Made by a program: the position numbers and the translations under genes. Shown here piece by piece: positions 5,261 through 45,937 of a stretch of DNA of 64,000 nt. Source of the stretch: Photobacterium leiognathi (GTDB taxonomy: Bacteria > Pseudomonadota > Gammaproteobacteria > Enterobacterales > Vibrionaceae); assembly GCF_030685535.1 (NCBI RefSeq), contig NZ_CP131601.1, positions 62,001 to 126,000 on the forward strand, given 5' to 3'. The notes below the pieces were generated by a model. The model ran no database searches. It was not told where the DNA came from and saw nothing but the letters and a program-made list of their open reading frames with translations. Positions within the stretch are counted from its first letter, which is position 1; each line of letters starts with the position of its first letter.

Positions 5261-5325
5261 CACTGATATTTTCTAACGCTAATTGAGATAAAGAAAAGGC
5301 TCCTAACGGCTGTCTCTTATACACA

Positions 5326-5356
5326 AATCCCTAAGCCAATGCTTGGGGATTTTTTT
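5326..5356 (+). terminator. Intrinsic terminator inside the IS left end (copy 1)
   Basis: Arms AATCCCTAAGC and GCTTGGGGATT form an 11-bp stem (one G-U pair) around a CAAT loop, followed by a T-run. It stands 16 bp inside the element, before the transposase gene. It would stop transcription entering from the left, which limits read-through expression of the transposase and ends the upstream pilin transcript. Confidence 0.8.
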
Positions 5357-5409
5357 GAACTAATTTTATGTTTCATGATCTGATCATCTAAGCAATGATA
5401 AGGATGATT

Positions 5410-6801
5410 ATGATGACCTATATAGAACCAACTCTTTGGGCTCAAAAACAATTCGGTCAAGCCGATCTTAATGACCCAAGACGCACTCAAAGACTCGTTG
5501 CTCTAGCTACCTCTCTGGCTGAACAACCTGGTATCCCTATCTCAAAACTCATCATCTCCCCAGCCGATATGGAAGGGGCTTATCGCTTTATTCGTAATGA
5601 CCAAATCAAAGCAGAAGATATTGCAGAAGCTGGATTCTATGTCACAGCACAAGAAGCTTTTGAACAACAAACACTGCTTGCATTGGAAGATACCACTTCT
5701 CTAAGTTACTCACATCACAGCATACAAGATACACTCGGGCATTCCAATCAAGGTAATCGACACCGAGCAATGTTCGTTCATTCAACGTTGCTTTTTGCTC
5801 CCGAAACTCACACTGTAGTTGGTTTAATCGAACAACAACGCTGGACCCGAGATATTGAAAAACGTGGTCAAAGACACCAGCATGCAACTCGACCATACAA
5901 AGAAAAAGAAAGTTATAAATGGGAACAAGCATCTCGCCATGTTGCAGAGCGACTAGGCGAGAAAATGTCAGAGGTTATTTCTGTATGTGATAGAGAAGCC
6001 GATTTATTCGAGTACCTCACTTACAAGCACGAGCAACAACAACGATTTATCGTTCGCTCAATGCAAAGTCGCTGTATCGAGGAGCATGATAATCGTCTTT
6101 ATGACTACGCTTCCAAGTTGTTATCAGCAGGAAGCAAAGAGCTAAAAATACCGCAAAAAGGCGGTCGTAAGTCCCGCACGGCTCATCTAGACATCAAATA
6201 TGCTCCCGTGACACTTAAGTCTCCCGCTAATAAAAAAGAGTTCGATAATATCTCTCTCTACTATGTTGGATGTATAGAGCAAGGTGAGAGTGACGACAAG
6301 CTCGCATGGCATTTACTGACATCAGAGCCTGTAACGAACAAAGAGGAAGCACTTAACATCGTCAGTTATTATGAGCGTCGTTGGCTGATAGAAGATTTTC
6401 ACAAGGTTTGGAAAAGTGAAGGCACGCAAGTTGAACAACTGAGAATGCAAAGTAAAGATAACTTAGAAAGGCTCAGTGTTATTTTGGCATTTATTGCTAC
6501 TCGTTTACTCCAGTTAAGATTTATGAACGAATCTAAAGAGTTATCTAGTAGCTGTTGTGAACGGGTGTTAAAAGGTAAAGCGTGGAAGCTTATGTGGTTA
6601 AAATTGGAGAAGAAAAAGCTGCCCAAAGAAGCACCAAATATATCGTGGGCTTACAAAAGTATTGCACGGTTAGGTGGTTGGAAAGATACCAAGCGGACGG
6701 GTCGCGCTTCTGTAAAGACATTATGGCAAGGATGGTTTAGGTTACAAACCATCCTTGAAGGATATGAACTAGCTAAGTCTCTTGAACACAATGACTTGTG
6801 A
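5410..6801 (+). CDS. IS4-family transposase, copy 1
   Basis: DDE transposase of the IS50 group. The ORF could open at 5395, but AAGGA at 5400-5404 best serves the ATG at 5410, giving 463 residues. Counted from 5395, the catalytic residues are D99 (LEDTTS), D199 (VCDREAD) and E333. The last lies in the IS4 signature Y-(2)-R-(3)-E-(6)-K, seen as YERRWLIEDFHKVWK. The stop codon lies inside the right terminal repeat. Two GATC sites at 5377-5385 lie just upstream of the start and another lies in the right end, so Dam control as in IS50 and IS10 is likely. No frameshift is present, so the protein should be active. Confidence 0.93.
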   Translation: MMTYIEPTLWAQKQFGQADLNDPRRTQRLVALATSLAEQPGIPISKLIISPADMEGAYRFIRNDQIKAEDIAEAGFYVTAQEAFEQQTLLALEDTTSLSYSHHSIQDTLGHSNQGNRHRAMFVHSTLLFAPETHTVVGLIEQQRWTRDIEKRGQRHQHATRPYKEKESYKWEQASRHVAERLGEKMSEVISVCDREADLFEYLTYKHEQQQRFIVRSMQSRCIEEHDNRLYDYASKLLSAGSKELKIPQKGGRKSRTAHLDIKYAPVTLKSPANKKEFDNISLYYVGCIEQGESDDKLAWHLLTSEPVTNKEEALNIVSYYERRWLIEDFHKVWKSEGTQVEQLRMQSKDNLERLSVILAFIATRLLQLRFMNESKELSSSCCERVLKGKAWKLMWLKLEKKKLPKEAPNISWAYKSIARLGGWKDTKRTGRASVKTLWQGWFRLQTILEGYELAKSLEHNDL

Positions 6802-6873
6802 TCAAGAGACAGACAGATGGTCGCCTTTTTTGATCGTATTTGATACTTAGTCTTGTGACGTTACCACCATTGG

Positions 6874-8343
6874 TCAACCCATGTCAGTTTGACGGGTCGC
6901 TTCTTGGTGCAGTTCACTGCGGGTCAGTGGGTTGTTGATCAACCATTTGGCGGGCAATAGCAGGGTAATTTTTTCCCCGTCGACTTGCAGGCTAAATGGT
7001 GCCAAACAACGAGTATCACGACGATGACAAACAATCACCGCAATACGTAATAGACGCAGTAAACGGGCTGCACTTTGTGCTGATAACGCATGTTGTTCAG
7101 GTAAGCTGGTGAGTGGTCCTGTGTAACGACGCAAGATCTCAGCCAGCAAGTTACGCTGTGCGCGGGTAAAGCCTGGTAAATCAAGGTGCTTGATCAGATA
7201 AGCCGCATGCTCTGCGCTTTTCTTAAACTCAATACTAGCGCCGATTTCGTGCAGTTTTACTGCCGCTTCCAAGATGTTTTGTGCTTGTGGTTCAAGTTGC
7301 CAATTCGGGCATTGGCTTAACATCGACATTGCCATGTCGTTGACAATATCGGCATGTTCGGTATCAATTTGGAAGCGTTGTTGGACACTCTCAATGGTAC
7401 GGGTACAGACATCATGATGGCGCATTTGATCCATCATTTCATACACCATACCTTCACGCAGTGCGCCACAAGCTAAGGTCATAGATTCGATTTTTAATGA
7501 CTCAAATAGTGCGATTAAAATCGACAAACCACTTGGGAATACCAAGGCACGTTCAAGGGTGAGACCTTCAATATCAAGATCTTCTAGACGTTCATACTGC
7601 ATGGCTTGACGTTGTAAACGCTTTAGCTTTTGCAGGGTGATAATTTCATCCATCCCTTGTGCAAGCATGATTTCTTGTAGCGCTTGAACGGTACCACTGG
7701 CACCTACACAGCTTTCCCAGCCCAGCGCAGTGTAACGGTCGATGATAGGTTCAATGGCTTCTTTTGCACCATTGATCGCTGCATCGAAGTTTGCGGAGGT
7801 CAAGCTGCGATCTTTAAAGTAGCGCTCAAGCCAAGTGACACAGCCAATTTTAAGGCTAGTGAGGGCACTTGAATCAAACCCTTCACCGATGATCACTTCG
7901 GTACTGGCGCCACCAATATCGACCACTAAGCGTTTATCGCTACCACCAGAGGTATGCGCCACACCTTGATAGATAATGCGGGCTTCTTCTTCACCCGGAA
8001 TAATGTTGACCGGATAACCAAGGATCATTTTCGCCTTGGAAAGAAATTCTTCTGCGTTCACCGCTGTGCGTAGCGCAGCTGTACCGACGATACGGATATG
8101 ATCTGCTTTGATATCTTGTAAGCGTTCGGCAAATAGCGCTAAGCAGTCTAGACCGCGCTGCATCGCTTCTTCACTGAGTACGTTCTGGCTGTTAAGACCA
8201 GCAGCTAAACGCACTTTACGTTTAATTTTAGCTAACGTCTGAACACTGCCATTCACTTCGCGCACGATCCACATGTGGAAACTGTTTGAGCCTAAATCGA
8301 TAGCGGCATAAAGCGGTGATACTGAATTTCTTTCCATAGACAT
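6874..8343 (-). CDS. gppA: Ppx/GppA phosphatase (pppGpp 5'-phosphohydrolase)
   Basis: Converts pppGpp to ppGpp and may also cleave polyphosphate. It has 489 residues. The ASKHA nucleotide-binding fold starts [14 protein letters not shown], followed by [12 protein letters not shown] and [12 protein letters not shown]; a C-terminal HD-type domain has HEIG. Sequence and length fit GppA better than Ppx. It starts 15 bp after the rhlB stop, so the two form an operon. The ATG at 8337 is an alternative start. IS copy 1 lies beyond its 3' end. Confidence 0.9.
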
Positions 8344-8358
8344 ACTTACTTCTAATTA

Positions 8359-9669
8359 TTATGCAGGCTTATTGTTTTGGGGACGACGGCGATTATTACG
8401 CGAACGTTGTTGTCCCTGACCTTGGCCTTGGCGTTGAGTATTACGGCGACTACCTTGGCGCGGATTACGCTGTAAGCGGATCGGTGCTGGTAGATCTTCT
8501 AGCAGTGCATCGGAATCATATTTTGATTGTGGGATACCGTGTTCGATGTAGGTTTCGATCGTCGGTAAGTTAATCGCGTATTCTTCACAAGCAAAGCTGA
8601 TAGAGTGACCGCTTGCGCCTGCACGACCAGTACGACCAATGCGGTGTACGTAATCTTCTGCATCGTCTGGCAGATCGTAGTTAAACACATGCGTTACTGC
8701 AGGAATATGTAAACCACGGGCTGCAACGTCAGTCGCCACTAAGATATCAATATCACCTTTTGTGAATTGATCAAGGATACGCTCACGTTTTTTCTGTGGT
8801 ACATCGCCAGTCAAAAGACCAACACGGTGACCGTCAGCAGCTAGGTGACCCCAAACATCTTCACAGCGGTGCTTAGTGTTAGCGAAGATAATTGCACGCT
8901 CTGGACATTCTTCTTCGATTAACGTTTGTAGCAAACGCATTTTCTCTTGATTTGAAGGGTAGAACAGCTCTTCTTGAATGCGGTGACCTGTTTTTTGCTC
9001 AGGCTCAACAATCACGCTTTCAGGGCTATTCATGTGCTCAAACGCAAGCTCTTTCACTCGGTATGATAGGGTTGCCGAGAACAATAGGCTTAAACGCTCA
9101 GTTGGTGCTGGCATACGGCGGAACAAGAAGCGGATATCTTTAATAAAGCCAAGATCGAACATGCGATCCGCTTCATCAAGTACAACAACTTGAATGCTAT
9201 TTAGCTCAATAACACGCTGCTTGTAGAAATCAATAATACGGCCACACGTACCGATCAAGATATCTACGCCTTCATCAAGAATCGCTTTTTGCTTCTCGTA
9301 AGGTTCACCGCCGTAAGCAAGACCAGCCTTAAGGCCTGTGCTCGCAATCAGAGAAGATGCGTCGTTATAAATTTGGATCGCCAATTCACGCGTTGGGGCC
9401 ATGATAATGGCACGCGGTTGATTGGTTTTGCGATGCGCAGGCGCTGCAGTCTCCAGTAAGTGGTTAAAAGTAGCGGTTAGGAAGGCAATGGTTTTACCCG
9501 TACCTGTTTGAGCCTGTCCCGCAATGTCGTGGTCAGAGAGCATAACTGGCAATGCCAAGGCTTGGATCGGGGTGCAATTATGGAACCCTTTATCTTCCAA
9601 TCCTTTTAAAACTAGAGGGTTTAACCCTAGCTCGGCAAATTTCTGCTCTGTGATGTGAGTCGTCTTCAT
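8359..9669 (-). CDS. rhlB: ATP-dependent RNA helicase RhlB
   Basis: DEAD-box helicase; in enteric bacteria it works with RNase E in the degradosome. It has 436 residues. Motifs in order are the Q-motif region (GFHNCTPIQ), Walker [29 protein letters not shown] and [10 protein letters not shown]. The C-terminal tail is rich in Arg, Gln and Asn (about 35 residues) and suits RNA binding. It is divergent from trxA, and gppA follows at 15 bp. Confidence 0.95.
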
Positions 9670-9782
9670 TGCTATAGAATATCAGCTTAGGGTTGCAATA
9701 CGAAACGTATTCCATTCAAATAGGAGATCGATTTGCTGGTCAAAATAAGATCGGCTAACAAAATCAACTGTTGGAGTGGAAG

Positions 9783-10109
9783 ATGAGCGACAAGATTGTG
9801 CAGCTTACAGATGCGAGTTTTGACACTGATGTTATCAATGCTGCTGGCCCTGTATTAGTCGATTTTTGGGCTGAATGGTGTGGTCCATGTAAAATGATTG
9901 CCCCTATTCTTGACGAAATCGCTGATGAATACGAAGGCAAACTGACTATCGGTAAACTAAATATCGATCAGAATGCGGGTACACCACCAAAATTTGGTAT
10001 TCGTGGTATCCCGACATTACTACTGTTCAAAGACGGTGGTGTAGCGGCAACGAAAGTTGGTGCATTGTCGAAAACTCAGCTTAAAGAATTCCTAGACGCG
10101 AACCTTTAA
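9783..10109 (+). CDS. trxA: Thioredoxin 1
   Basis: Cytosolic dithiol reductase of 108 residues. The active site WCGPC has C33 and C36, and the cis-proline is in RGIPTLLLF. The ATG at 9783 is chosen over an upstream in-frame TTG at 9771 because [10 protein letters not shown] matches the family start and GGAG precedes it. It lies just upstream of rho, as in E. coli. Confidence 0.96.
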
Positions 10110-10119
10110 GTGCAATTAT

Positions 10120-10160
10120 TACAAACCATGGACAATTTCTAAGTTGTGCATGGTTTGTCT
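10120..10160 (+). promoter_or_regulatory. Long hairpin in the rho leader
   Basis: ACAAACCATG (10121-10130) pairs with CATGGTTTGT (about 10149-10158) around an 18-nt loop, in the 198 bp between trxA and rho. There is no T-run after the stem. In E. coli this leader contains the autogenous attenuation region of rho. A similar role here is inference. Confidence 0.4.
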
Positions 10161-10307
10161 AACGTCTATGCTAGACGGATAGAACGTTTAGTGTTACCTT
10201 AGCGCACAGAAATTACATTTTCGTTCATTTCTTGACCAGGCCCTATTGGTCATCCTTATCTCAACTAATATAGAACCCCGATTTTGACAGACAAGAAACC
10301 CACCACT

Positions 10308-11573
10308 ATGAACCTTACAGAACTGAAGAGCCAACCGATTTCTAAGTTGGTTGCACTTGGCGAAAGTTTAGGATTAGAAAACCTTGCCCGCTTGAGAAAG
10401 CAAGACATCATCTTCTCCATCCTCAAGCAACATGCGAAAAGTGGTGAGGATATTTTTGGCGATGGTGTTCTAGAAATTTTACAAGATGGCTTCGGCTTCC
10501 TACGTAGTGCAGATAGTTCTTACCTTGCTGGCCCAGATGATATTTACGTATCTCCAAGTCAAATCCGTCGTTTTAACCTTCGTACTGGCGATACTATTGC
10601 CGGAAAGATCCGTCCACCTAAAGACGGTGAACGTTACTTCGCACTACTGAAAGTTAACGAAGTAAACTACGACAAGCCAGACAACGCCCGCAACAAGATC
10701 CTATTTGAAAACCTTACACCGCTACACGCAAACTCTCGTATGCGTATGGAGCGTGGTAACGGCTCTACAGAAGACATCACCGCACGTGTTCTTGATTTAG
10801 CATCACCAATCGGTAAAGGCCAACGTGGTCTGATCGTTGCTCCGCCAAAAGCGGGTAAAACCATGCTACTTCAAAACATTGCGCAAAGTATTGCCCACAA
10901 CCACCCTGAGTGTGAGTTGATGGTATTGCTTATCGACGAACGTCCTGAAGAAGTAACAGAGATGCAGCGCCTAGTTAAAGGTGAAGTGATTGCATCAACG
11001 TTCGATGAGCCAGCATCTCGTCACGTACAAGTGGCAGAAATGGTAATTGAAAAAGCAAAACGTCTAGTTGAGCACAAGAAAGATGTGGTTATCCTACTTG
11101 ATTCAATTACTCGTCTAGCACGTGCATACAATACCGTTATTCCTTCATCTGGTAAGGTACTAACAGGTGGTGTTGATGCTAACGCGCTACACCGTCCTAA
11201 GCGTTTCTTCGGTGCTGCACGTAACGTAGAAGAAGGCGGTAGCTTAACTATCATCGCAACAGCGCTAGTAGATACTGGCTCTAAGATGGATGAAGTTATC
11301 TACGAAGAATTTAAAGGTACAGGTAACATGGAACTTCACCTTTCTCGCAAGATCGCTGAGAAACGTGTATTCCCTGCTATTGATATCAACCGCTCTGGTA
11401 CTCGTCGTGAAGAGCTATTGGCGAAAGCTGATGAGCTACAGAAGATGTGGATCCTACGTAAGATCGTTCACCCAATGAGCGAAACTGACAGCATGGAATT
11501 CTTAATTGATAAACTATCAATGACGAAGACTAACGATGAATTCTTTGATGCGATGCGTCGTCAGAAATCATAA
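10308..11573 (+). CDS. rho: Transcription termination factor Rho
   Basis: Hexameric RNA-dependent ATPase that ends transcription at Rho sites. It has 421 residues against 419 in E. coli. [14 protein letters not shown] begins the N-terminal RNA-binding part, the cold-shock-like fold includes [14 protein letters not shown], and Walker A (APPKAGKT) is near residue 178. [13 protein letters not shown] and [11 protein letters not shown] follow. The ATG at 10308 fits the family; an in-frame TTG at 10284 is a less likely start. Confidence 0.97.
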
Positions 11574-11601
11574 TACGCTGTACTGAGTCACAGATTTTGA
11601 A

Positions 11602-11627
11602 AACGTCGCCTACGGGCGGCGTTTTTT
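11602..11627 (+). terminator. Intrinsic terminator after rho
   Basis: CGTCGCC and GGCGGCG pair around a short loop and are followed by TTTTTT. Confidence 0.8.
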
Positions 11628-15089: not shown

Positions 15090-15800
15090 ATGTCTATCCA
15101 GTGCGAAGTAAAGTCAGTACAACCCTTAGCCGCGAACACGTATCGCATTTTGTTAAAGCCTGAGCAGGCGATTGATTTCAAAGCGGGACAATACCTGCTT
15201 GCGGTAATGGGCGAGAAAGATAAACGTCCATTTTCAATTGCTAGTAGCCCATGCCGTGAAGGCGAGCTTGAGCTACATATTGGTGCGGCAGAGCAAAATG
15301 CGTATGCATTAGAAGTCGTAGAAGCGATGAAAGCGGCATTAGATTGCAATGAGCCTGTCGTGGTTGATGCAGCCCACGGTGAAGCATGGCTGCGCCATGA
15401 AAGTGAGCGTCCACTACTGATGATTGCAGGTGGTACTGGTTTTTCTTATATCCGTAGCATGCTCGATAACTGCATTAGCCGTGGTTTAACTCAGCCTATC
15501 TTCGTTTACTGGGGCGGTCGTGGTATCGATCAGCTATATGCCAATGAAGAGATGCAGGCGTTAGCGGCAAAACACGGCAACATCACCTATGTGCCAGTGG
15601 TTGAAAATGCCCCTGAAAATTGGTCAGGCAAAGTCGGTAACGTATTGGATGCGGTAGCAGAGGATTTTGTTTGCTTATCAGCGTACGACATCTATGTTTG
15701 TGGTCGTTTTGAAATGGCTGGTGCGGCGCGTGAACGTTTCTGCAATGAAAAAGGTGCGCACCGCGAACACATGTTTGCCGATGCCTTTGCTTTTATCTAA
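15090..15800 (+). CDS. fre: NAD(P)H-flavin reductase
   Basis: FNR-fold reductase that supplies reduced flavin. It has 236 residues. RPFSIAS (from residue 46) binds flavin, [12 protein letters not shown] (about 112) binds NAD(P)H, and the end FADAFAFI is typical of Fre/LuxG. It follows the ferredoxin gene after 9 bp. Its terminator, a perfect palindrome, has been split by IS copy 2. Confidence 0.93.
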
Positions 15801-15846
15801 GTAATAAAGATTCATTAAAAAGCCAGCGTTAACGCCTGTCTCTTGA

Positions 15847-17238
15847 TCACAAGTCATTGTGTTCAAGAGACTTAGCTAGTTCATATCCTTCAAGGATGGT
15901 TTGTAACCTAAACCATCCTTGCCATAATGTCTTTACAGAAGCGCGACCCGTCCGCTTGGTATCTTTCCAACCACCTAACCGTGCAATACTTTTGTAAGCC
16001 CACGATATATTTGGTGCTTCTTTGGGCAGCTTTTTCTTCTCCAATTTTAACCACATAAGCTTCCACGCTTTACCTTTTAACACCCGTTCACAACAGCTAC
16101 TAGATAACTCTTTAGATTCGTTCATAAATCTTAACTGGAGTAAACGAGTAGCAATAAATGCCAAAATAACACTGAGCCTTTCTAAGTTATCTTTACTTTG
16201 CATTCTCAGTTGTTCAACTTGCGTGCCTTCACTTTTCCAAACCTTGTGAAAATCTTCTATCAGCCAACGACGCTCATAATAACTGACGATGTTAAGTGCT
16301 TCCTCTTTGTTCGTTACAGGCTCTGATGTCAGTAAATGCCATGCGAGCTTGTCGTCACTCTCACCTTGCTCTATACATCCAACATAGTAGAGAGAGATAT
16401 TATCGAACTCTTTTTTATTGGCGGGAGACTTAAGTGTCACGGGAGCATATTTGATGTCTAGATGAGCCGTGCGGGACTTACGACCGCCTTTTTGCGGTAT
16501 TTTTAGCTCTTTGTTTCCTGCTGATAACAACTTGGAAGCGTAGTCATAAAGACGATTATCATGCTCCTCGATACAGCGACTTTGCATTGAGCGAACGATA
16601 AATCGTTGTTGTTGCTCGTGCTTGTAAGTGAGGTACTCGAATAAATCGGCTTCTCTATCACATACAGAAATAACCTCTGACATTTTCTCGCCTAGTCGCT
16701 CTGCAACATGGCGAGATGCTTGTTCCCATTTATAACTTTCTTTTTCTTTGTATGGTCGAGTTGCGTGCTGGTGTCTTTGACCACGTTTTTCAATATCTCG
16801 GGTCCAGCGTTGTTGTTCGATTAAACCAACTACAGTGTGAGTTTCGGGAGCAAAAAGCAATGTTGAATGAACGAACATTGCTCGGTGTCGATTACCTTGA
16901 TTGGAATGCCCGAGTGTATCTTGTATGCTGTGATGTGAGTAACTTAGAGAAGTGGTATCTTCCAATGCAAGCAGTGTTTGTTGCTCTAAAGCTTCTTGTG
17001 CTGTGACATAGAATCCAGCTTCTGCAATATCTTCTGCTTTGATTTGGTCATTACGAATAAAGCGATAAGCCCCTTCCATATCGGCTGGGGAGATGATGAG
17101 TTTTGAGATAGGGATACCAGGTTGTTCAGCCAGAGAGGTAGCTAGAGCAACGAGTCTTTGAGTGCGTCTTGGGTCATTAAGATCGGCTTGACCGAATTGT
17201 TTTTGAGCCCAAAGAGTTGGTTCTATATAGGTCATCAT
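15847..17238 (-). CDS. IS4-family transposase, copy 2
   Basis: Intact DDE transposase. Compared with copies 1 and 4 it has Leu instead of Phe at residue 90 and Asn instead of Ser at 247 (numbered from the longest ORF, 17253). The start at 17238 is chosen for its AAGGA site. The catalytic residues and the YREK signature are unchanged. Confidence 0.93.
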   Translation of the reverse strand: MMTYIEPTLWAQKQFGQADLNDPRRTQRLVALATSLAEQPGIPISKLIISPADMEGAYRFIRNDQIKAEDIAEAGFYVTAQEALEQQTLLALEDTTSLSYSHHSIQDTLGHSNQGNRHRAMFVHSTLLFAPETHTVVGLIEQQRWTRDIEKRGQRHQHATRPYKEKESYKWEQASRHVAERLGEKMSEVISVCDREADLFEYLTYKHEQQQRFIVRSMQSRCIEEHDNRLYDYASKLLSAGNKELKIPQKGGRKSRTAHLDIKYAPVTLKSPANKKEFDNISLYYVGCIEQGESDDKLAWHLLTSEPVTNKEEALNIVSYYERRWLIEDFHKVWKSEGTQVEQLRMQSKDNLERLSVILAFIATRLLQLRFMNESKELSSSCCERVLKGKAWKLMWLKLEKKKLPKEAPNISWAYKSIARLGGWKDTKRTGRASVKTLWQGWFRLQTILEGYELAKSLEHNDL

Positions 17239-17291
17239 AATCATCCTTATCATTGCTTAGATGATCAGATCATGAAACATAAAATTAGTTC

Positions 17292-17322
17292 AAAAAAATC
17301 CCCAAGCATTGGCTTAGGGATT
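17292..17322 (-). terminator. Intrinsic terminator inside the IS left end (copy 2)
   Basis: Same 11-bp stem and T-run as in copy 1. Here it faces transcripts arriving from the EamA transporter gene. Confidence 0.8.
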
Positions 17323-17375
17323 TGTGTATAAGAGACAGGCGTTAACGCTGGCTTTTTTGTCTCTGAAGTAGGGGA

Positions 17376-31654: not shown

Positions 31655-32113
31655 ATGGCCTATTGGTTATTCAAAACAGAACCAGACACATTTTCTATAG
31701 ACACCCTAAAGCAGATGAAAGTTTCACCTTGGGAAGGGGTTCGAAACTATCAAGCCCGTAATATGTTACGTGATGAAGTAAAATTAGGGGATCAGATCTT
31801 CATTTATCACTCATCGTGTAAAGATGTTGGGGTGGTGGGTATTGCTACCGTTACCAAAGCATCGTATCCCGATCATTTTCAGTTTGATCCCGAAAGCCCG
31901 TATTTTGACCCGAAATCTGATCCTAACAACCCACGTTGGTTTATGGTCGATATCGAGTATCAACGCCATTTACGTTTAGTCAGTTTAAAGCGTATGAAAG
32001 CTAACCCCGCCTTAGCAGACATGCCATTAGTGAAAAAAGGCAGTCGCTTAAGTGTGATGCCTGTAACCGAGGCACAATGGCAGGAAATCCTGACCATGAC
32101 AGGGCAGTTCTAA
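31655..32113 (+). CDS. EVE-domain protein
   Basis: 152-residue stand-alone EVE domain (PUA-like fold): MAYWLFKTEPDTFSIDTL, WEGVRNYQARNMLRD, GDQIFIYHSS and RWFMVDIEY. EVE domains bind modified bases in DNA or RNA; related proteins act near restriction systems or in RNA modification. The function of this housekeeping version is unknown. Its downstream terminator has been split by IS copy 3. Confidence 0.87.
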   Translation: MAYWLFKTEPDTFSIDTLKQMKVSPWEGVRNYQARNMLRDEVKLGDQIFIYHSSCKDVGVVGIATVTKASYPDHFQFDPESPYFDPKSDPNNPRWFMVDIEYQRHLRLVSLKRMKANPALADMPLVKKGSRLSVMPVTEAQWQEILTMTGQF

Positions 32114-32176
32114 TACTCTAAAAGAGCTTAACAACTGAAATAAAAAAGGCTGCGCGAGGCCTGTCTCTTATACACA

Positions 32177-32207
32177 AATCCCTAAGCCAATGCTTGGGGA
32201 TTTTTTT
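32177..32207 (+). terminator. Intrinsic terminator inside the IS left end (copy 3)
   Basis: Same stem and T-run as in copy 1. It takes over termination of the EVE transcript. Confidence 0.8.
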
Positions 32208-32260
32208 GAACTAATTTTATGTTTCATGATCTGATCATCTAAGCAATGATAAGGATGATT

Positions 32261-33652
32261 ATGATGACCTATATAGAACCAACTCTTTGGGCTCAAAAAC
32301 AATTCGGTCAAGCCGATCTTAATGACCCAAGACGCACTCAAAGACTCGTTGCTCTAGCTACCTCTCTGGCTGAACAACCTGGTATCCCTATCTCAAAACT
32401 CATCATCTCCCCAGCCGATATGGAAGGGGCTTATCGCTTTATTCGTAATGACCAAATCAAAGCAGAAGATATTGCAGAAGCTGGATTCTATGTCACAGCA
32501 CAAGAAGCTTTAGAGCAACAAACACTGCTTGCATTGGAAGATACCACTTCTCTAAGTTACTCACATCACAGCATACAAGATACACTCGGGCATTCCAATC
32601 AAGGTAATCGACACCGAGCAATGTTCGTTCATTCAACATTGCTTTTTGCTCCCGAAACTCACACTGTAGTTGGTTTAATCGAACAACAACGCTGGACCCG
32701 AGATATTGAAAAACGTGGTCAAAGACACCAGCACGCAACTCGACCATACAAAGAAAAAGAAAGTTATAAATGGGAACAAGCATCTCGCCATGTTGCAGAG
32801 CGACTAGGCGAGAAAATGTCAGAGGTTATTTCTGTATGTGATAGAGAAGCCGATTTATTCGAGTACCTCACTTACAAGCACGAGCAACAACAACGATTTA
32901 TCGTTCGCTCAATGCAAAGTCGCTGTATCGAGGAGCATGATAATCGTCTTTATGACTACGCTTCCAAGTTGTTATCAGCAGGAAACAAAGAGCTAAAAAT
33001 ACCGCAAAAAGGCGGTCGTAAGTCCCGCACGGCTCATCTAGACATCAAATATGCTCCCGTGACACTTAAGTCTCCCGCCAATAAAAAAGAGTTCGATAAT
33101 ATCTCTCTCTACTATGTTGGATGTATAGAGCAAGGTGAGAGTGACGACAAGCTCGCATGGCATTTACTGACATCAGAGCCTGTAACGAACAAAGAGGAAG
33201 CACTTAACATCGTCAGTTATTATGAGCGTCGTTGGCTGATAGAAGATTTTCACAAGGTTTGGAAAAGTGAAGGCACGCAAGTTGAACAACTGAGAATGCA
33301 AAGTAAAGATAACTTAGAAAGGCTCAGTGTTATTTTGGCATTTATTGCTACTCGTTTACTCCAGTTAAGATTTATGAACGAATCTAAAGAGTTATCTAGT
33401 AGCTGTTGTGAACGGGTGTTAAAAGGTAAAGCGTGGAAGCTTATGTGGTTAAAATTGGAGAAGAAAAAGCTGCCCAAAGAAGCACCAAATATATCGTGGG
33501 CTTACAAAAGTATTGCACGGTTAGGTGGTTGGAAAGATACCAAGCGGACGGGTCGCGCTTCTGTAAAGACATTATGGCAAGGATGGTTTAGGTTACAAAC
33601 CATCCTTGAAGGATATGAACTAGCTAAGTCTCTTGAACACAATGACTTGTGA
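32261..33652 (+). CDS. IS4-family transposase, copy 3
   Basis: Intact, with the same protein as copy 2 (Leu90, Asn247). The DDE residues and YREK signature are present. The start is chosen at 32261 for the AAGGA site; the stop is inside the right terminal repeat. Confidence 0.93.
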   Translation: MMTYIEPTLWAQKQFGQADLNDPRRTQRLVALATSLAEQPGIPISKLIISPADMEGAYRFIRNDQIKAEDIAEAGFYVTAQEALEQQTLLALEDTTSLSYSHHSIQDTLGHSNQGNRHRAMFVHSTLLFAPETHTVVGLIEQQRWTRDIEKRGQRHQHATRPYKEKESYKWEQASRHVAERLGEKMSEVISVCDREADLFEYLTYKHEQQQRFIVRSMQSRCIEEHDNRLYDYASKLLSAGNKELKIPQKGGRKSRTAHLDIKYAPVTLKSPANKKEFDNISLYYVGCIEQGESDDKLAWHLLTSEPVTNKEEALNIVSYYERRWLIEDFHKVWKSEGTQVEQLRMQSKDNLERLSVILAFIATRLLQLRFMNESKELSSSCCERVLKGKAWKLMWLKLEKKKLPKEAPNISWAYKSIARLGGWKDTKRTGRASVKTLWQGWFRLQTILEGYELAKSLEHNDL

Positions 33653-33695
33653 TCAAGAGACAGGCGCGAGGCAGCCTTTTTTGATCGATTAGCGC

Positions 33696-37708: not shown

Positions 37709-37711
37709 AAA

Positions 37712-38575: not shown

Positions 38576-38590
38576 AATAAGTCTTTATTA

Positions 38591-39576: not shown

Positions 39577-40434
39577 TTAACCTTTTTCTGCTGGTGTTGC
39601 GGTCACGCTTTGACTCAGTACCTTAATACACTCAGAAAGGGCTGGGTTTAAGGTTTTACTGGCGGGATAGCACAGCCCTAAACGGCGGAACATGCGTGGT
39701 CCTTCTAGCGGTACCGTCACCAATTGATTGGCACTTTCTAGCACGCCAGTCGGGAGAAACGAAATGCCAAGCCCTGCTTGAACCAAGTGCATGACTTGGG
39801 TTTTATGCTCTGCCTTTGCCACTAAGTTTACTGATAGGCCATCACATGCCAGTAGTCCTATGGTTTGCTGGTGGGCTTCGCAAGGCGGGCACTCAATAAA
39901 ATCATGTTGGTGTAATTGCTCAGGGGTGACAGATGTTAAGCTCGCAAGTGGGTGATCGGGCAACATGCACAGCACATAGTCTTCATCCCATAGCGGCAAA
40001 AAGATCTCATCTTCAGCCTTGAACATATCGAGGGTTAAGCGCGCATCTGCTGGCTTGTCATGATCAACCAATTCGAGCGATAAGTTGGCAATGTTGTGGT
40101 GTAAGGTCGCAAACACTTTCGCCAGCTGGCTTTGGCTGAGATCGGGGAAGTTTGCCAAGGTCAGTGGTAATCGCTCAGTACGCTGTTGGAACAATTGCGG
40201 TAGGGTATTTACGTCATTGAGTAAACGGATCGCTAATGGATATAAGTAATGAGCTTCATCGGTAACATCGACCCCTTTTTTATGGCGCAAAAACAGGACG
40301 GTATTCAGCTCTTGCTCTAGCTGTTTGATACCGTTGGAAATCGACGGTTGAGACACAAAGCAGCGCTCAGCGGCAAGGGTAATATTTTTCTCTTCATAAA
40401 CCGCAATGAAAAAGCGTAGTAGTCGTAAATCCAT
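39577..40434 (-). CDS. LysR-family transcriptional regulator
   Basis: 285 residues. The N-terminal winged helix-turn-helix is typical (MDLRLLRFFIAVYEEKNITLAAERCFVSQPSISNGIKQLE), with the effector domain from about residue 90. It lies downstream of the abgT-type transporter on the same strand, but a strong terminator separates them. The target is unknown; regulation of the transporter is a reasonable guess. LTTRs usually sit divergent from their target, which is not the case here. Confidence 0.87.
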   Translation of the reverse strand: MDLRLLRFFIAVYEEKNITLAAERCFVSQPSISNGIKQLEQELNTVLFLRHKKGVDVTDEAHYLYPLAIRLLNDVNTLPQLFQQRTERLPLTLANFPDLSQSQLAKVFATLHHNIANLSLELVDHDKPADARLTLDMFKAEDEIFLPLWDEDYVLCMLPDHPLASLTSVTPEQLHQHDFIECPPCEAHQQTIGLLACDGLSVNLVAKAEHKTQVMHLVQAGLGISFLPTGVLESANQLVTVPLEGPRMFRRLGLCYPASKTLNPALSECIKVLSQSVTATPAEKG

Positions 40435-40503
40435 CGTAAGTAACCTTCTATGATGCTAAGTGAGCAGGTTATCACAGCAATAGGATTTAGCGGGAAATAG
40501 ACG

Positions 40504-40530
40504 TAAAAAAGCCGGACATCATGTCCGGCT
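40504..40530 (-). terminator. Intrinsic terminator after the AbgT gene
   Basis: GCCGGACA pairs with TGTCCGGC around 3 nt; on the minus strand TTTTTT follows. Confidence 0.92.
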
Positions 40531-40545
40531 AAATGGGAGAGGTGA

Positions 40546-42138
40546 TTAACCTGCGATGTTATAGTAAGTATTAGCGCCAGGACCTACTGGGATACCCAGT
40601 ACGAACACCCACACATAGAACATGATGCTCCAACCAATCACGAATACAATCGAGTATGGCAGCATGGTTGAGATCAACGTACCTAGACCTAGGTTCTTCT
40701 GGTAACGAGTGGCTACAGCTAGGATCATACCGAAGTAGCTCATCATTGGAGTAATGATATTGGTTACTGAGTCACCGATACGGTACGCCGCTTGGATCGT
40801 TTCAGGCGCGTAGCCTACCAGCATTAGCATTGGAATAAAGATAGGTGCAGTTACTGCCCACTGTGCTGATGCTGAACCAATCATAAGGTTGATAAAGCCA
40901 CACATTAAGATGAAGGCGAAGAACAGCGCTGGAGCAGTTAGACCAATCGATTGTAGGAAGTCTGCACCACCAACTGCGAATACTTGACCGAAGTTCGTCC
41001 ATTTAAAGAACGCCACGAATTGTGCTGCGAAGAACACCAGTACAATGTACATACCCATTGATGACATCGACACTGACATCGCGTTGATCACATCACGGTC
41101 GTTCTTCATCGTGCCAACGACTTTACCGTAAACAAAGCCTGGAATTGCGAAGAACACGAAGATAAATGCCACGATACCTTTAAGGAACGGAGAGCCTGCC
41201 ACTAAACCAGTTTGTGGGTTACGTAGAATACCGTCAGCAGGCACAATCGTCAGTGCTAGTAGTGCTGCAACAGCGAGGGCTGCAAGACCAGCCGCTTTCA
41301 AACCTTTCTTTTCAAGCGCAGTCAGTTTGCCCATTTTATCTTGGCTTAAATCATCACTGGCTTCAGAAGCGTCGTATTTGCCGAGTTTCGGCTCAACGAT
41401 TTTCTCAGTAACGAATGCACCCATGATGGTGATAGCAAAGGTTGAAGCAAACATGAAGTACCAGTTCACTTCTGGGCCAACAATGTAGTTAGGATCGATC
41501 ATTTGTGCTGCAGTTTGGGTAATACCCGATAGCAGTGGATCAACTGTACCTAGTAGTAAGTTAGCACTGTAACCACCTGATACACCAGCAAAAGCGGCAG
41601 CAAGACCTGCTAATGGGTGACGACCTAGCGAGTGGAATAGCATTGCTGCAAGTGGAATAAGTACTACGTAGCCAAGCTCAGAGGCAGTGTTAGAGATAAT
41701 ACCGGCAAATACCACAACCAGCGTTACCATGCGACGAGACGCGCCCATTACCAAACCACGCATCGCAGAAGATAATAGACCAGAATGTTCTGCAATCGCC
41801 ACACCTAGCATAGCAACCAGCACCGTACCTAGTGGTGCAAAGCCAGTGAAGTTTTTCACTAGGTTTGCCACGATAAGTTGTAGACCTTCAGCGTTAAGTA
41901 GGCTGACCACATGGATCATACCGTCCGCGGCACGACCTGCTGCACCTTCTGGGCGTGGATCGGTAACAGAAACGCCAAAGTAACAAGCAATGCCAGAAGC
42001 GACTAAGATCGCGATACAGAAAATAGCAAAGAGGGTAATTGGGTGCGGTAATAGGTTACCTAACCATTCCACAGTATCGAGAAAACGCGTAAAGAGCGTC
42101 TTTTTAGGTTGCTGTTGTTGTGAAGCCGATGAGTGCAT
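40546..42138 (-). CDS. AbgT-family transporter
   Basis: Inner-membrane transporter of 530 residues with about 12 helices. WLGNLLPHPITLFAIFC, GASRRMVTLVVVFAGIISNTASELGYVVLIPLAAMLF and GYAPETIQAAYRIGDSVTNIITPMM are typical of the p-aminobenzoyl-glutamate (AbgT) family. Members import p-aminobenzoyl-glutamate or export sulfonamides. No abgAB hydrolase is adjacent, so import for salvage is not supported here. The ATG at 42138 has GGAGGT 5 bp upstream. Confidence 0.87.
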   Translation of the reverse strand: MHSSASQQQQPKKTLFTRFLDTVEWLGNLLPHPITLFAIFCIAILVASGIACYFGVSVTDPRPEGAAGRAADGMIHVVSLLNAEGLQLIVANLVKNFTGFAPLGTVLVAMLGVAIAEHSGLLSSAMRGLVMGASRRMVTLVVVFAGIISNTASELGYVVLIPLAAMLFHSLGRHPLAGLAAAFAGVSGGYSANLLLGTVDPLLSGITQTAAQMIDPNYIVGPEVNWYFMFASTFAITIMGAFVTEKIVEPKLGKYDASEASDDLSQDKMGKLTALEKKGLKAAGLAALAVAALLALTIVPADGILRNPQTGLVAGSPFLKGIVAFIFVFFAIPGFVYGKVVGTMKNDRDVINAMSVSMSSMGMYIVLVFFAAQFVAFFKWTNFGQVFAVGGADFLQSIGLTAPALFFAFILMCGFINLMIGSASAQWAVTAPIFIPMLMLVGYAPETIQAAYRIGDSVTNIITPMMSYFGMILAVATRYQKNLGLGTLISTMLPYSIVFVIGWSIMFYVWVFVLGIPVGPGANTYYNIAG

Positions 42139-42505
42139 CACTACCTCCGTTATAGTTTTAATCCCATCAATGGGTACTGCTTTTGTAAGCAAGATGTTAT
42201 CTTGATGTTTAATGTGAAATCAATGTTAAATTGTGTCCAAATGTAAATGTATGCTTTATAACGCTTTAAAAATAACCAAATACAAAATTATTGATTAGTT
42301 GTTAAATCTTGATGGTAGGGATAATGAAAGTGACTGCTGATGTGATTAGATAAACCAATGATACAGAGAGCTATCCATAGCTTTTTTTGATGATAAACCT
42401 AAGAAATCGATATTTTTCACTTCTATCAATCCGACCTATAGTGGATACATCAACAACATGCAGGCCTGTTGAATATTTTTCGAATTACCAAAGTAGGAAA
42501 GTCTT
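42139..42505. other. Divergent promoter region, AbgT gene / SDR gene
   Basis: 367 bp of AT-rich sequence without a credible ORF. A short stem AGCTAT-CC-ATAGCT (42369-42382) is followed by TTTTTT on the plus strand. It may be a weak terminator or attenuator ahead of the SDR gene. Confidence 0.4.
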
Positions 42506-43228
42506 ATGTCTAAATCATTAGTTGTTATTACAGGTGCAAGTTCAGGTATTGGTGAAGCGACAGCGCGTCAACTGTCAGCTGAAGGCTACCCATTATTATT
42601 ACTTGCGCGTCGTGTAGAACGCATGGAAGCAATGAACTTACCTAACACCTTATGTCGCCAAGTAGACATCACTGATGTTGCAGCGGTAAAAGCAGCGATT
42701 GAAGAAGCAGAAGCGAAGTTTGGCCCTGTGGATTGTTTGATTAACAACGCAGGCATCATGCTACTTGGTTTAGCTGATGAGCAAGATCCAGCAGAATGGC
42801 AGAGCATGTTCAACGTTAACGTGATGGGTATGTTGAATGGTATTCATGCTGTGTTATCTGGTATGAAGTCACGTAAACACGGTACTGTAATTAACATCAG
42901 CTCAATTGCTGGTCGTAAGACATTCCCTAGCCATGCTGCATACTGTGGTACTAAATTTGCGGTGCATGCGATCACTGAAAACATTCGTGAAGAAGTGGCT
43001 GATGATAACGTTCGCTTTATTACTATCGCGCCGGGCGCAGTAGAAACTGAGCTACTTAGCCACACTACCAGCGATGAGATTAAAGCAGGTTACGAAGAGT
43101 GGAAAGAAGGCATGGGCGGTGTGATTGCACCTCAAGATATAGCGAATGCGATTAGCTACGCTTATAACCAGCCACAAAACTTATGTATCCGCGAAATCGT
43201 ATTGGCAGCAACTCGCCAACAACCATAA
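42506..43228 (+). CDS. Short-chain dehydrogenase/reductase
   Basis: Classical SDR of 240 residues. The coenzyme motif TGASSGIG is at 9-16, NNAG at 80-83, the catalytic Ser in NISSIAG, and Y146/K150 in YCGTK. The R35-R36 region after the second strand (LLARR) favours NADP(H). The substrate is unknown. AGGAAAG precedes the ATG. It is divergent from the AbgT transporter, and no functional link is evident. Confidence 0.9.
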   Translation: MSKSLVVITGASSGIGEATARQLSAEGYPLLLLARRVERMEAMNLPNTLCRQVDITDVAAVKAAIEEAEAKFGPVDCLINNAGIMLLGLADEQDPAEWQSMFNVNVMGMLNGIHAVLSGMKSRKHGTVINISSIAGRKTFPSHAAYCGTKFAVHAITENIREEVADDNVRFITIAPGAVETELLSHTTSDEIKAGYEEWKEGMGGVIAPQDIANAISYAYNQPQNLCIREIVLAATRQQP

Positions 43229-43320
43229 GTTTATTAACTGGGGTTAGCATGTCAGTGTGCTGTCAGTAATGTTAAAAGCACCACGCTTACTCAATACATG
43301 TTATTGATCCCCTGTTATAT

Positions 43321-43368
43321 TTAAAGAGGAGTTATTGATATCAATGATGTCGATAATTCCTCTTTTTT
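43321..43368 (+). terminator. Intrinsic terminator after the SDR gene
   Basis: AAAGAGGAGTTAT pairs with ATAATTCCTCTTT (one G-U) across an internal loop and is followed by TTTT. Confidence 0.75.
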
Positions 43369-43386
43369 GTATCAGAGGGAAAGGTG

Positions 43387-44392
43387 ATGAGAGAAAAGGT
43401 TTGGTATTTTGATCTGCTGCGGGTAGTTGCTGCCGTTGCAGTCGTGGTGATCCATGTTTTAGGTCCTTATCGGGAACAATTAGGACAAATACCTGATTGG
43501 GAGTGGATCACTGCGATCACCTTTAACAGTTTTAGCCGTTGGGCGGTGCAGGTATTTATTATGATCACTGGGGCCTTAATGCTCAGTGATGAGCGTCCTT
43601 TTGAAGGGCGTTACTATTTAAAACGTCGGGTTGGTAAAGTGCTGATCCCGTTTGTGGTGTGGTCAGTGTTTTATGCGTTCTTCTCTGCGTTTTCCGCTTC
43701 AGGCACCAACTTTGCGACCAGTTGGAAGCTCCTGACTGACATGCCTTTTCATGAAACCTATTATCACCTGGGTTTCTTCTATTATTTTATTCCGTTGTAC
43801 TTAATTGTGCCTTTCTACCAATGGGCAATTCAACGTATGGAGCCGGGGCAAGTCAAAGGTGTGGTCATGGTATGGTTGGTGATCACCGCTTCGTACTTAT
43901 TCCATATTGATGGGCTATGGAGCGAGACTTACTTGCTTTACAGTGGCTATTTGATCTTGGGTTATTGCTTGTATAAATATCACTGGCCGCCAATGGTATT
44001 GTTGATCCCATTAGCCATAGTTGCACTGTTGATCACTGATTATAGGGTTGTGAGCCATAGTTTAACGGCTGGCGAATATAAAATCGGGCGTTGGTTATCT
44101 TATAAGACAATCAATACTGCAATTGCTGCTGCTGGCGTGTTTGTTTTATGTCGTTATATTAGTGATAAATTGGGTGATACAAGCCGTGAAAGATTATCAG
44201 TTATTAGCCGTCATAGCTTGGGGATCTATTTGCTCCATCCGATCTTTTTATGCTACAGTGCGTAATTACGATTGGTACTTTGCAAATCCACTTATCGCCA
44301 TTCCTTTCTGGACGCTGGTGGCGGGTGGTTTAGCCTTTGCGACCAGTTGGCTATTAAGCCGCAGTACCAAAACAGCATGGTTGGTGCCATAA
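43387..44392 (+). pseudogene. Acyltransferase-3 family gene with a frameshift
   Basis: Multi-pass membrane O-acyltransferase resembling E. coli WecH, beginning MREKVWYFDLLRVVAAVAVVVIHVLG with the conserved histidine. The reading frame breaks in TTTTT at 44245-44249 after HSLGIYLLHPIF and stops at about 44263. Removing one T restores YATVRNYDWYFANPL and a natural end at 44392, adding about 45 residues with the last helix. The break is either a true mutation, a slippage-prone switch, or a sequencing error. The ORF up to the break is well conserved, so any loss is recent. GAGGGAAAGG precedes the ATG. The 3' side holds IS copy 4. Confidence 0.75.
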
Positions 44393-44430
44393 ATAGAAAA
44401 AGCCTGACACTGTCCTGTCTCTTATACACA

Positions 44431-44461
44431 AATCCCTAAGCCAATGCTTGGGGATTTTTTT
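44431..44461 (+). terminator. Intrinsic terminator inside the IS left end (copy 4)
   Basis: Same stem and T-run as in copy 1. It takes over termination of the acyltransferase transcript. Confidence 0.8.
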
Positions 44462-44514
44462 GAACTAATTTTATGTTTCATGATCTGATCATCTAAGCAA
44501 TGATAAGGATGATT

Positions 44515-45906
44515 ATGATGACCTATATAGAACCAACTCTTTGGGCTCAAAAACAATTCGGTCAAGCCGATCTTAATGACCCAAGACGCACTCAAAGACT
44601 CGTTGCTCTAGCTACCTCTCTGGCTGAACAACCTGGTATCCCTATCTCAAAACTCATCATCTCCCCAGCCGATATGGAAGGGGCTTATCGCTTTATTCGT
44701 AATGACCAAATCAAAGCAGAAGATATTGCAGAAGCTGGATTCTATGTCACAGCACAAGAAGCTTTTGAACAACAAACACTGCTTGCATTGGAAGATACCA
44801 CTTCTCTAAGTTACTCACATCACAGCATACAAGATACACTCGGGCATTCCAATCAAGGTAATCGACACCGAGCAATGTTCGTTCATTCAACGTTGCTTTT
44901 TGCTCCCGAAACTCACACTGTAGTTGGTTTAATCGAACAACAACGCTGGACCCGAGATATTGAAAAACGTGGTCAAAGACACCAGCATGCAACTCGACCA
45001 TACAAAGAAAAAGAAAGTTATAAATGGGAACAAGCATCTCGCCATGTTGCAGAGCGACTAGGCGAGAAAATGTCAGAGGTTATTTCTGTATGTGATAGAG
45101 AAGCCGATTTATTCGAGTACCTCACTTACAAGCACGAGCAACAACAACGATTTATCGTTCGCTCAATGCAAAGTCGCTGTATCGAGGAGCATGATAATCG
45201 TCTTTATGACTACGCTTCCAAGTTGTTATCAGCAGGAAGCAAAGAGCTAAAAATACCGCAAAAAGGCGGTCGTAAGTCCCGCACGGCTCATCTAGACATC
45301 AAATATGCTCCCGTGACACTTAAGTCTCCCGCTAATAAAAAAGAGTTCGATAATATCTCTCTCTACTATGTTGGATGTATAGAGCAAGGTGAGAGTGACG
45401 ACAAGCTCGCATGGCATTTACTGACATCAGAGCCTGTAACGAACAAAGAGGAAGCACTTAACATCGTCAGTTATTATGAGCGTCGTTGGCTGATAGAAGA
45501 TTTTCACAAGGTTTGGAAAAGTGAAGGCACGCAAGTTGAACAACTGAGAATGCAAAGTAAAGATAACTTAGAAAGGCTCAGTGTTATTTTGGCATTTATT
45601 GCTACTCGTTTACTCCAGTTAAGATTTATGAACGAATCTAAAGAGTTATCTAGTAGCTGTTGTGAACGGGTGTTAAAAGGTAAAGCGTGGAAGCTTATGT
45701 GGTTAAAATTGGAGAAGAAAAAGCTGCCCAAAGAAGCACCAAATATATCGTGGGCTTACAAAAGTATTGCACGGTTAGGTGGTTGGAAAGATACCAAGCG
45801 GACGGGTCGCGCTTCTGTAAAGACATTATGGCAAGGATGGTTTAGGTTACAAACCATCCTTGAAGGATATGAACTAGCTAAGTCTCTTGAACACAATGAC
45901 TTGTGA
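44515..45906 (+). CDS. IS4-family transposase, copy 4
   Basis: Intact, with the same protein as copy 1 (Phe90, Ser247). The DDE residues and YREK signature are present. The start is chosen at 44515 for the AAGGA site. Confidence 0.93.
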   Translation: MMTYIEPTLWAQKQFGQADLNDPRRTQRLVALATSLAEQPGIPISKLIISPADMEGAYRFIRNDQIKAEDIAEAGFYVTAQEAFEQQTLLALEDTTSLSYSHHSIQDTLGHSNQGNRHRAMFVHSTLLFAPETHTVVGLIEQQRWTRDIEKRGQRHQHATRPYKEKESYKWEQASRHVAERLGEKMSEVISVCDREADLFEYLTYKHEQQQRFIVRSMQSRCIEEHDNRLYDYASKLLSAGSKELKIPQKGGRKSRTAHLDIKYAPVTLKSPANKKEFDNISLYYVGCIEQGESDDKLAWHLLTSEPVTNKEEALNIVSYYERRWLIEDFHKVWKSEGTQVEQLRMQSKDNLERLSVILAFIATRLLQLRFMNESKELSSSCCERVLKGKAWKLMWLKLEKKKLPKEAPNISWAYKSIARLGGWKDTKRTGRASVKTLWQGWFRLQTILEGYELAKSLEHNDL

Positions 45907-45937
45907 TCAAGAGACAGGACACTGTCAGGCCTAATGA

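Follow-up and report, generated by a model that had tools for sequence, protein, structure and literature searches.

Insertion of a Tn5-type insertion sequence at terminator hairpins in Photobacterium leiognathi, probably through base-specific reading of two inverted half-sites

The transposase of an insertion sequence (IS) of Photobacterium leiognathi probably reads two inverted half-sites, AAAGSCW|SC (the bar marks the cut), in a base-specific manner and with a floating spacing between them, and its preference for transcription terminators would follow from this reading. Four near-identical copies of the element, 1503 bp each, lie in a stretch of 64,000 nucleotides of contig NZ_CP131601.1 (positions 62,001 to 126,000), called the window below. 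By its sequence, the element resembles ISVa18 and falls into the IS50 (Tn5) subgroup of the IS4 family.

RESULTS

Insertion sites in the genome

The genome surveyed comprises 4.75 Mb in three contigs (L-numbers denote loci and G-numbers genomes throughout) and contains 31 near-full copies of the element. A target repeat was kept in 28 of them, exact in 25, and measured 8 bp (4 copies), 9 bp (9), 10 bp (14), or 11 bp (1). A hairpin was found at the repeat center in 26 of the 28 copies. The claim of an initial annotation, made from the window sequence, that the element inserts at the axis of terminator hairpins was thereby upheld here, as it was in close relatives; nor did the copies lie mostly outside hairpins, the outcome named there as contrary to the claim. 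The two exceptions were L002, in which an imperfect stem stands between A- and T-tracts, and L009, which is intragenic. By a strict test, an A-tract and a T-tract were both present at 21 of the 28 targets.

In 22 of the 25 exact repeats, the repeat center was itself the best axis of symmetry within ±10 bp; one repeat gave a tie, and in two the axis lay half a base off. The mean number of pairs was 7.6 of 9 at the repeat center, versus 1.2 to 3.2 at the 16 neighboring offsets, and axis placement is far above chance genome-wide. These axis counts take exact repeats only (25 of 31 copies here, 38 of 42 in the relatives of at least 83% identity, 8 of 10 in G173, and 8 of 9 in G287), and they retain two artifacts, L002, which has lost a base from one repeat, and L190, which consists of tandem copies. 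L103, which is the site of L002, has a 10-bp repeat and an imperfect stem. The insertions in G119, G143, G313, and the genome studied here together with G022 may partly be shared by descent, and the counts are not all independent. The three copies without a repeat (L007, which is copy 1 of the window, L020, and L023) have flanks that resemble terminator halves by eye.

A crude call of the open reading frames around the 31 copies gave a convergent (+-) orientation for 15, ++ for 7, -- for 5, -+ for 1, and an unclear one for 3. This call is fallible, as copy 4, which is actually convergent, was scored ++. A restriction to convergent intergenic regions was ruled out, since 13 of the 31 copies were scored otherwise (by the crude call, and copy 4 among them wrongly). 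The rule that open frames are never crossed did not hold either: L009 is intragenic, and stop-free stretches of 103 to 220 codons, not judged to be genes but possibly coding, span L002, L017, and L026. The sparing of genes proposed in the initial annotation was mostly borne out, L009 being the sole copy of the 31 that lies clearly inside a coding region.

Conserved word at a fixed distance from the cut

When 136 half-sites of the clade with at least 83% identity were anchored at the cut, the logo read A A A G S C W | S C, with A at 93 to 99% in positions -7 to -5, G at 96% in -4, S at 98% in -3, C at 97% in -2, and C at 84% in +2. The strand transfer point thus lies one base (W) beyond the conserved GSC. 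The word AAAGSC stood at a constant distance from the cut in 19/22, 22/26, 51/60, 14/14, and 4/4 half-sites for repeats of 8, 9, 10, 11, and 12 bp, respectively, and the nine positions outside the cut held 12.2 bits in the cut-anchored alignment versus 9.5 bits in the center-anchored one. Since the distance between word and cut is constant at every length, the repeat length equals the spacing between the two half-sites. The rule suggested at first, 10 bp for an even hairpin center and 9 bp for an odd one, did not survive, as the repeats range from 8 to 11 bp here, from 8 to 12 bp in close relatives, and from 9 to 14 bp in G287.

As a background, we sampled this genome in 40 stretches of 20 kb, 800 kb in all, which contained 118 strict bidirectional terminators. 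Of the 28 targets, 25 have GSC at each stem foot, as against 23 of the 118 terminators (Fisher P = 6e-12), the position of GSC being counted from the cut in the targets and from the A/T-tract in the background. With two-fold symmetry as the sole requirement, every terminator would serve, but GSC is no general property of the terminators in this genome; symmetry alone is not what is recognized. The proposal that a symmetric or cruciform target is recognized rather than a base sequence is not supported: the stem-foot bases are conserved relative to the cut, and L009 lacks a good hairpin.

A half-site matrix built from 72 half-sites of the relatives' genomes only reached the median score of the copies at 3 places per 800 kb, while 132 centers per 800 kb reached their median hairpin score. 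As a predictor of the copies in this genome, the half-site model trained on the relatives is far superior to hairpin strength. The genome holds 52 unoccupied places of the form AAAGSCW-N8..12-WGSCTTT, of which 50 were compared with the occupied ones. Occupied places favored a spacing of at most 10 bp (17/18 versus 24/50; P = 5e-4) and GGC on both sides (11/18 versus 12/50; P = 0.008); the hairpin criterion did not separate the two groups significantly (17/18 versus 38/50; P = 0.16). From these sequence comparisons we conclude that the half-sites are probably read and sufficient.

The copy at L009 (G000:C1:149891-151393) bears directly on this conclusion. It is 100% identical, has a 10-bp repeat, and lies in a stop-free stretch of 436 codons, the right part of which matches the Sel1 repeat. 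Its target, AAAGGCT-AACTATTGGC-AGGCTTT, has two good half-sites, a half-site model score of 14.6, and poor pairing, and a search for a hairpin at the repeat center found none. By its sequence, this landing is one on a chance half-site pair in a Sel1-repeat gene. Poorly paired targets also occur in relatives, namely, in G031 (L121 and L127) and G287 (L222).

Identity of the element

In each of the four copies in the window, the transposase is encoded by a single frame of 468 amino acids. That of copy 1 has the Pfam domains Tnp_DNA_bind, Dimer_Tnp_Tn5, and DDE_Tnp_1 (for DNA binding, dimerization, and the DDE domain) and matches NCBIfam NF033590 at an E value of 2e-164; the Tn5 transposase chains in the PDB (1muh/1mm8) match the protein at 1e-82. 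The IS4-family motif Y(2)R(3)E(6)K is fitted by YYERRWLIEDFHKVWK, and LALED, CDREAD, and IED align with Tn5, where we take them to hold the catalytic D, D, and E.

The termini are CTGTCTCTTATACACAA and TTGTGATCAAGAGACAG. For the IS50 subgroup, Table 1 of PMC2266710 lists the end signature CW------Y---CA-A--W- and a length of 1350 to 1550 bp; CTGTCTCTTATACACAAATC matches all listed positions of this signature, and 1503 bp falls within the range. The target repeats are about one helix turn long, as in the IS4 family at large (8 to 11 bp, with 23 of 28 at 9 to 10 bp in this genome), but depart from the 8 to 9 bp of the IS50 subgroup, since 15 of the 28 measure 10 to 11 bp and those of G287 reach 14 bp. 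We place the element in the IS50 subgroup because its protein and ends fit, and its repeat length would widen that subgroup. The protein is 89% identical to that of a copy annotated as "ISVa18 family," the comparison having been made with this annotated copy.

A stretch of about nine residues in the transposase (the RGQRHQHATRPY region, around RDIEKRGQRHQHATRPYKEK) is missing in Tn5 and in G085, a relative that does not target the axis, and it varies between lineages with different half-sites. The stretch is also present in G128, whose one site shows no hairpin, and this basic loop is therefore only a candidate for a part that contributes to target reading.

The left end contains a terminator-like hairpin 15 to 46 bp from the IS tip, which was absent from the output of a simple promoter and terminator scan. 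It might stand in for the split host terminator of the left-hand gene. At the right end, the end sequence and its inverted inner copy make up a near-perfect palindrome (arms about 15 nt long), which overlaps the end of the transposase gene; the other copies share it.

Copies in the window

The coordinates of the four copies and of their targets are given in Table 1. Each copy is flanked by convergent open frames, 4661-5260(+)/6874-8343(-) for copy 1, 15090-15800(+)/17376-18245(-) for copy 2, 31655-32113(+)/33696-34502(-) for copy 3, and 43384-44265(+)/45938-46270(-) for copy 4, in agreement with the initial annotation (retested for orientation). Its statement that the repeats of copies 2, 3, and 4 are centered on the hairpin axis was also correct: they are GCGTTAACGC (10 bp), GCGCGAGGC (9 bp), and GACACTGTC (9 bp). 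The description of the sites as bidirectional terminators needs a correction for copy 4, whose hairpin has no T-run on the right (AGGCCTAAT) and is not a strict bidirectional terminator.

TABLE 1 Element copies, target halves, and end structures in the window
Feature	Position	Strand	Remarks
IS copy 1 (L007)	5310..6812	+	1503 bp; no target repeat; hybrid flanks
Copy 1 transposase	5395..6801	+	468 aa, IS4 family / Tn5 type
Terminator-like hairpin 5325-5352 with T-run (to 5356)	5325..5356	+	Inside the IS left end; fold z -3.95
Near-perfect palindrome, IS right end	6777..6810		End sequence and inverted inner copy; fold z -4.6 and -3.7 on both strands
IS copy 2	15836..17338	-	Transposase 15847-17253 (-)
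Copy 2 left terminator half	15817..15835		A-tract 15817-15821, GCCA 15822-15825, repeat GCGTTAACGC 15826-15835
Copy 2 right terminator half	17339..17358		Repeat 17339-17348, TGGC, T-tract
IS copy 3	32161..33663	+	Transposase 32246-33652 (+)
Copy 3 left terminator half	32142..32160		A-tract, GGCT 32148-32151, repeat GCGCGAGGC 32152-32160
Copy 3 right terminator half	33664..33682		Repeat 33664-33672, AGCC, T-tract
IS copy 4	44415..45917	+	Transposase 44500-45906 (+)
Copy 4 left hairpin half	44397..44414		A-tract, GCCT 44402-44405, repeat GACACTGTC 44406-44414
Copy 4 right hairpin half	45918..45930		Repeat 45918-45926, AGGC; then no T-tract

The right flank of copy 1 had been read as a further instance of the rule. 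It belongs instead to L008 (G000:C3:52813-54315), 14.5 kb away, whose terminator and 9-bp repeat it carries (AAAAAGGCG-ACAGATGGT-CGCCTTTTTT), and the two copies share this flank as far as TTTTTTGAT. Recombination between copies, or gene conversion, best accounts for the hybrid flanks of copy 1, and the shared stretch suggests a gene conversion that ran beyond the end of the IS.

The orthologous site of copy 2 is an element-free, intact terminator in G022 (L241) and at L243 to L249; the latter seven empty sites carry a similar word in four cases and another terminator in three. In G041 (L242) this terminator is occupied by an element in reverse orientation, with one flank only on the contig. 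The simplest reading of this sequence is an independent insertion.

Relatives in other genomes

Transposase matches were found at E ≤ 1e-3 in 10 of 52 genomes of the genus and at E ≤ 1e-60 in 33 of 329 genomes of the family, the genome studied here being included in both counts. The relatives of 83 to 94% identity (42 sites in G022, G119, G143, G313, G129, and six other genomes) yielded 38 exact repeats of 8 to 12 bp, and the axis coincided with the repeat center in 36 of them and tied in 2. Hairpin overlap and axis centering, which the initial annotation proposed to check in related genomes, hold in these close relatives. One site of this group, L190 (G119:C1:1472486-1476000), consists of two direct tandem copies with a single 8-bp target repeat between them.

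Further out, all exact repeats were on the axis in G173 (72% identity, 8/8), G045 (69%, 4/4), and G296 (53%, 4/4), and in G287 (61%) six of eight were, with one tie that includes the center; for G296, and likewise for G085 below, the counts cover part of the copies only. The repeats of G287 measure 9, 10, 13, or 14 bp, mostly with ACCA just beyond the cuts. At its loci L169, L221, and L223 the 13-bp repeats are themselves hairpins (CCGCC...GGCGG) with ACCA/TGGT flanks. The half-site words thus differ between lineages: ACCA| in G287, CCC[CTG]| in G296, and a CCC type in ISEc13.

Axis targeting is not common to all relatives. It was seen in two of four exact repeats of G031 (62%) and in none of four of G085 (43%), and the single sites of G128 and G235 (50%), G141 (55%), and G130 (68%) gave one tie and three off-axis positions. 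G223 (56%) does not conform either. Four of its five copies (L172 and L227 to L229) lie in one repeated CCCCCTCTAACTCCCCC-type (CCCC...GGGG-type) sequence with 10-bp repeats, which by its sequence is a different, repeat-directed kind of target. In the Rickettsia-endosymbiont relatives (29%) the ends are different, and inspection by eye showed no hairpin targets. Single fitting sites were found in Pseudoalteromonas luteoviolacea (47%), a plasmid of a Vibrio cholerae water isolate (89%), and a Salinivibrio plasmid (56%).

On the transposase tree, well-supported branches force at least three changes of the trait, parsimony gives four, and shuffled labels scored as low in 50 of 500 trials. A single origin of axis targeting is unsupported by the tree, and we make no claim as to when the trait arose.

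ISEc13 of Escherichia coli (51% identity) was examined at 15 loci, 10 of which have both ends and a repeat and represent 7 distinct sites; the five loci without a repeat were left unclassed. The best hairpin was on the repeat center at three of the seven sites, 1 nt off at three, and weak at one (L253). The centers do not scatter about the axis in the ISVa18-type clade, as they were expected to if the initial claim were wrong, but they do deviate in ISEc13 and in G031. The ISEc13 sites have CCC-type half-sites and include the ybaY/MGMT, ggt/yhhY, and yehA/rcnB intergenic regions as well as two ibs loci (L257 and L260, in a type I toxin-antitoxin region), where terminator-like hairpins are present. 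A site without a repeat (L251/L265) is not terminator-like by eye, and some copies are annotated inside genes. Judged by these sites, ISEc13 behaves similarly to the ISVa18-type clade but less exactly.

DISCUSSION

In the mechanism that we consider probable, a Tn5-type dimer with both transposon ends would meet a target carrying two inverted half-sites. Each subunit would contact the bases of one half-site, i.e., the last bases of the A-tract and GSC, and the strand would be joined one base past the C of GSC, at the bar in 5'-AAAGSCW|SC-3'. The half-sites would be fixed and a spacing of about 8 to 12 bp tolerated, so that the duplication would be the stretch between the half-sites. Terminators would be targeted because inverted AAAGSC pairs at the right spacing are mostly terminator-like hairpins here. 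Landing in terminators, on the axis, would largely spare genes, and the element's own left-end hairpin could end the transcripts of the left-hand gene after its terminator is split. We infer that the transposase itself, and not a host factor, does the reading.

Several observations weigh against this mechanism. The strict pattern (W at -1 and AAA at -7 to -5) is not fitted by 10 of the 28 targets, and one of the 50 places counted as unoccupied (C3:539745) lies within an element copy. Moreover, where high-scoring half-site pairs are unoccupied, 26 of 28 coincide with hairpins; since half-sites and hairpins are nearly inseparable, only L009, L121, L127, and L222 give a clean separation. The 13- to 14-bp repeats of G287 (four of its eight exact ones) are hard to fit to a rigid dimer on B-form DNA. 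Finally, paired exact-repeat sites (n = 81) have repeats of 8 to 14 bp, while among the unpaired ones (<60%; n = 16) 12 have 9 bp, 3 have 10 bp, and 1 has 8 bp. Five of these 16 are by eye half-base-off hairpins or artifacts (L002, L026, L108, L131, and L190), the sole 8-bp site being a hairpin half a base off, and the 11 that are left all have 9 to 10 bp. These lengths hint that a hairpin center may help the transposase accept other spacings, an effect confounded with lineage. The locus L160 of V. pacinii, with 5 bp between tract and repeat, disagrees in detail both with half-site reading and with the recognition of a structure considered below.

It is possible, though we regard it as unlikely, that the hairpin is extruded or melted when the dimer acts on it and that its two arms present one half-site to each subunit. 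The distance in space between the strand-transfer points would then be constant while the duplication floats between 8 and 14 bp. If true, a Tn5-type enzyme would capture its targets in a new way, with words that have changed between lineages.

A related and similarly doubtful explanation is that the extruded cruciform or hairpin itself is recognized, the cut being set by the distance from the stem foot and the stem-foot bases being secondary. The hairpin-centered position of nearly all copies with a repeat is what it predicts, as is a repeat length that follows hairpin length from 8 to 14 bp, and the narrow 9- to 10-bp range of the sites judged unpaired is in line with it. With the ends joined on the 5' side of the stem-loop, the cruciform model described for IS1272 in PMC5678879 predicts that the stem-loop is duplicated. 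Yet most hairpins of equal strength are unused, as the 132 background centers attest, and the stem-foot sequence departs sharply from that of ordinary terminators. The cut, in addition, lies 4 bp from the A-tract even where the stem could pair through the A/T-tract, so that the physical stem foot is not followed, and L009 was hit without a good hairpin.

Improbable, in our view, is a tethering by the host, in which RNA polymerase, a termination factor, or supercoiling between convergent genes brings the transposase to terminators. The four copies in the window and, by the crude call, at least 15 of the 31 in the genome do lie between convergent genes, but 13 were scored otherwise (copy 4 wrongly), one copy is intragenic, and the base-pair precision and the lineage-specific half-site motif are left unexplained. 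Selection acting on random insertions, of which only the harmless ones in terminators survive, can hardly be the cause: terminators between convergent genes are indeed harmless places, but selection cannot account for repeat centers that match the axis to the base, nor for a constant distance between AAAGSC and the cut, and recent copies, 100% identical, show the same pattern.

The element shares with Tn5/IS50 a homologous transposase, the same end signature, and a similar size. The target consensus of Tn5 is weak, whereas that of the element studied here is strong and all but confines it to terminators. According to PMC1525189, Tn5 targets are often palindromes that have GC pairs at the ends of the repeat. 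Table 1 of PMC2266710 lists direct repeats of 8 to 9 bp for the IS50 subgroup, as against 8 to 14 bp, set by half-site spacing, in the element and its relatives; the view of the initial annotation that the behavior is distinct among IS50 relatives was confirmed insofar as it exceeds what is listed for the subgroup. Two named elements, ISVa18 and ISEc13, group with the element (89% protein identity to the copy annotated as ISVa18 family and 51% to ISEc13). In a literature search that covered titles and the openings of abstracts, with most subscription papers outside it, we did not meet the name ISVa18, met ISEc13 only in papers on other subjects, and found no terminator targeting or 8- to 14-bp repeats in the IS50 subgroup.

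Within the IS4 family, the target consensus of IS231A is symmetric, and we know of no link of IS231A to terminators. This element belongs to another subgroup, with repeats of 10 to 12 bp as listed in PMC2266710. ISRm22 (IS4Sa subgroup) is described in PMC1525189 as inserted at the axis of palindromy of REP elements in all its copies in Sinorhizobium meliloti 1021. It differs from the element here in its subgroup (PMC2266710), its use of one repeated REP consensus rather than many terminators, and its 6-bp rather than variable repeats. The closest behavior, as described in PMC3317919, is that of IS1630 of Mycoplasma fermentans, which is of a different family (IS30) and has longer repeats (16, 23, 25, and 26 bp in four copies). 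IS1272/TnSha1 of the IS1182 family also uses hairpin targets, several of them confirmed terminators, one of which was hit repeatedly and in either orientation (PMC4923244 and PMC5678879); its targeting is reported to have little or no primary-sequence preference, to yield no target duplication, and to delete the stem-loop. None of these traits was found here: the element, of a different family, appears to read sequence, duplicates the hairpin core, and loses nothing. Since the targeting of palindromes or terminators is already known from IS1272, IS1630, and ISRm22, we rate the present behavior as a new variant.

The targeting of terminators explains how some 31 copies can be present with one clearly interrupted gene, and it makes landing sites predictable. 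Transcription may be affected, as each insertion interrupts a terminator, often one shared by two genes, and sets the element's own hairpin on one side. Among cut-and-paste transposases, that of Tn5 is the best studied; it underlies tagmentation and is prized because it inserts almost anywhere. With relatives that have defined inverted half-sites, whose words vary between lineages (AAAGSCW|, ACCA|, and the CCC type), target choice by Tn5-type transposases becomes testable.

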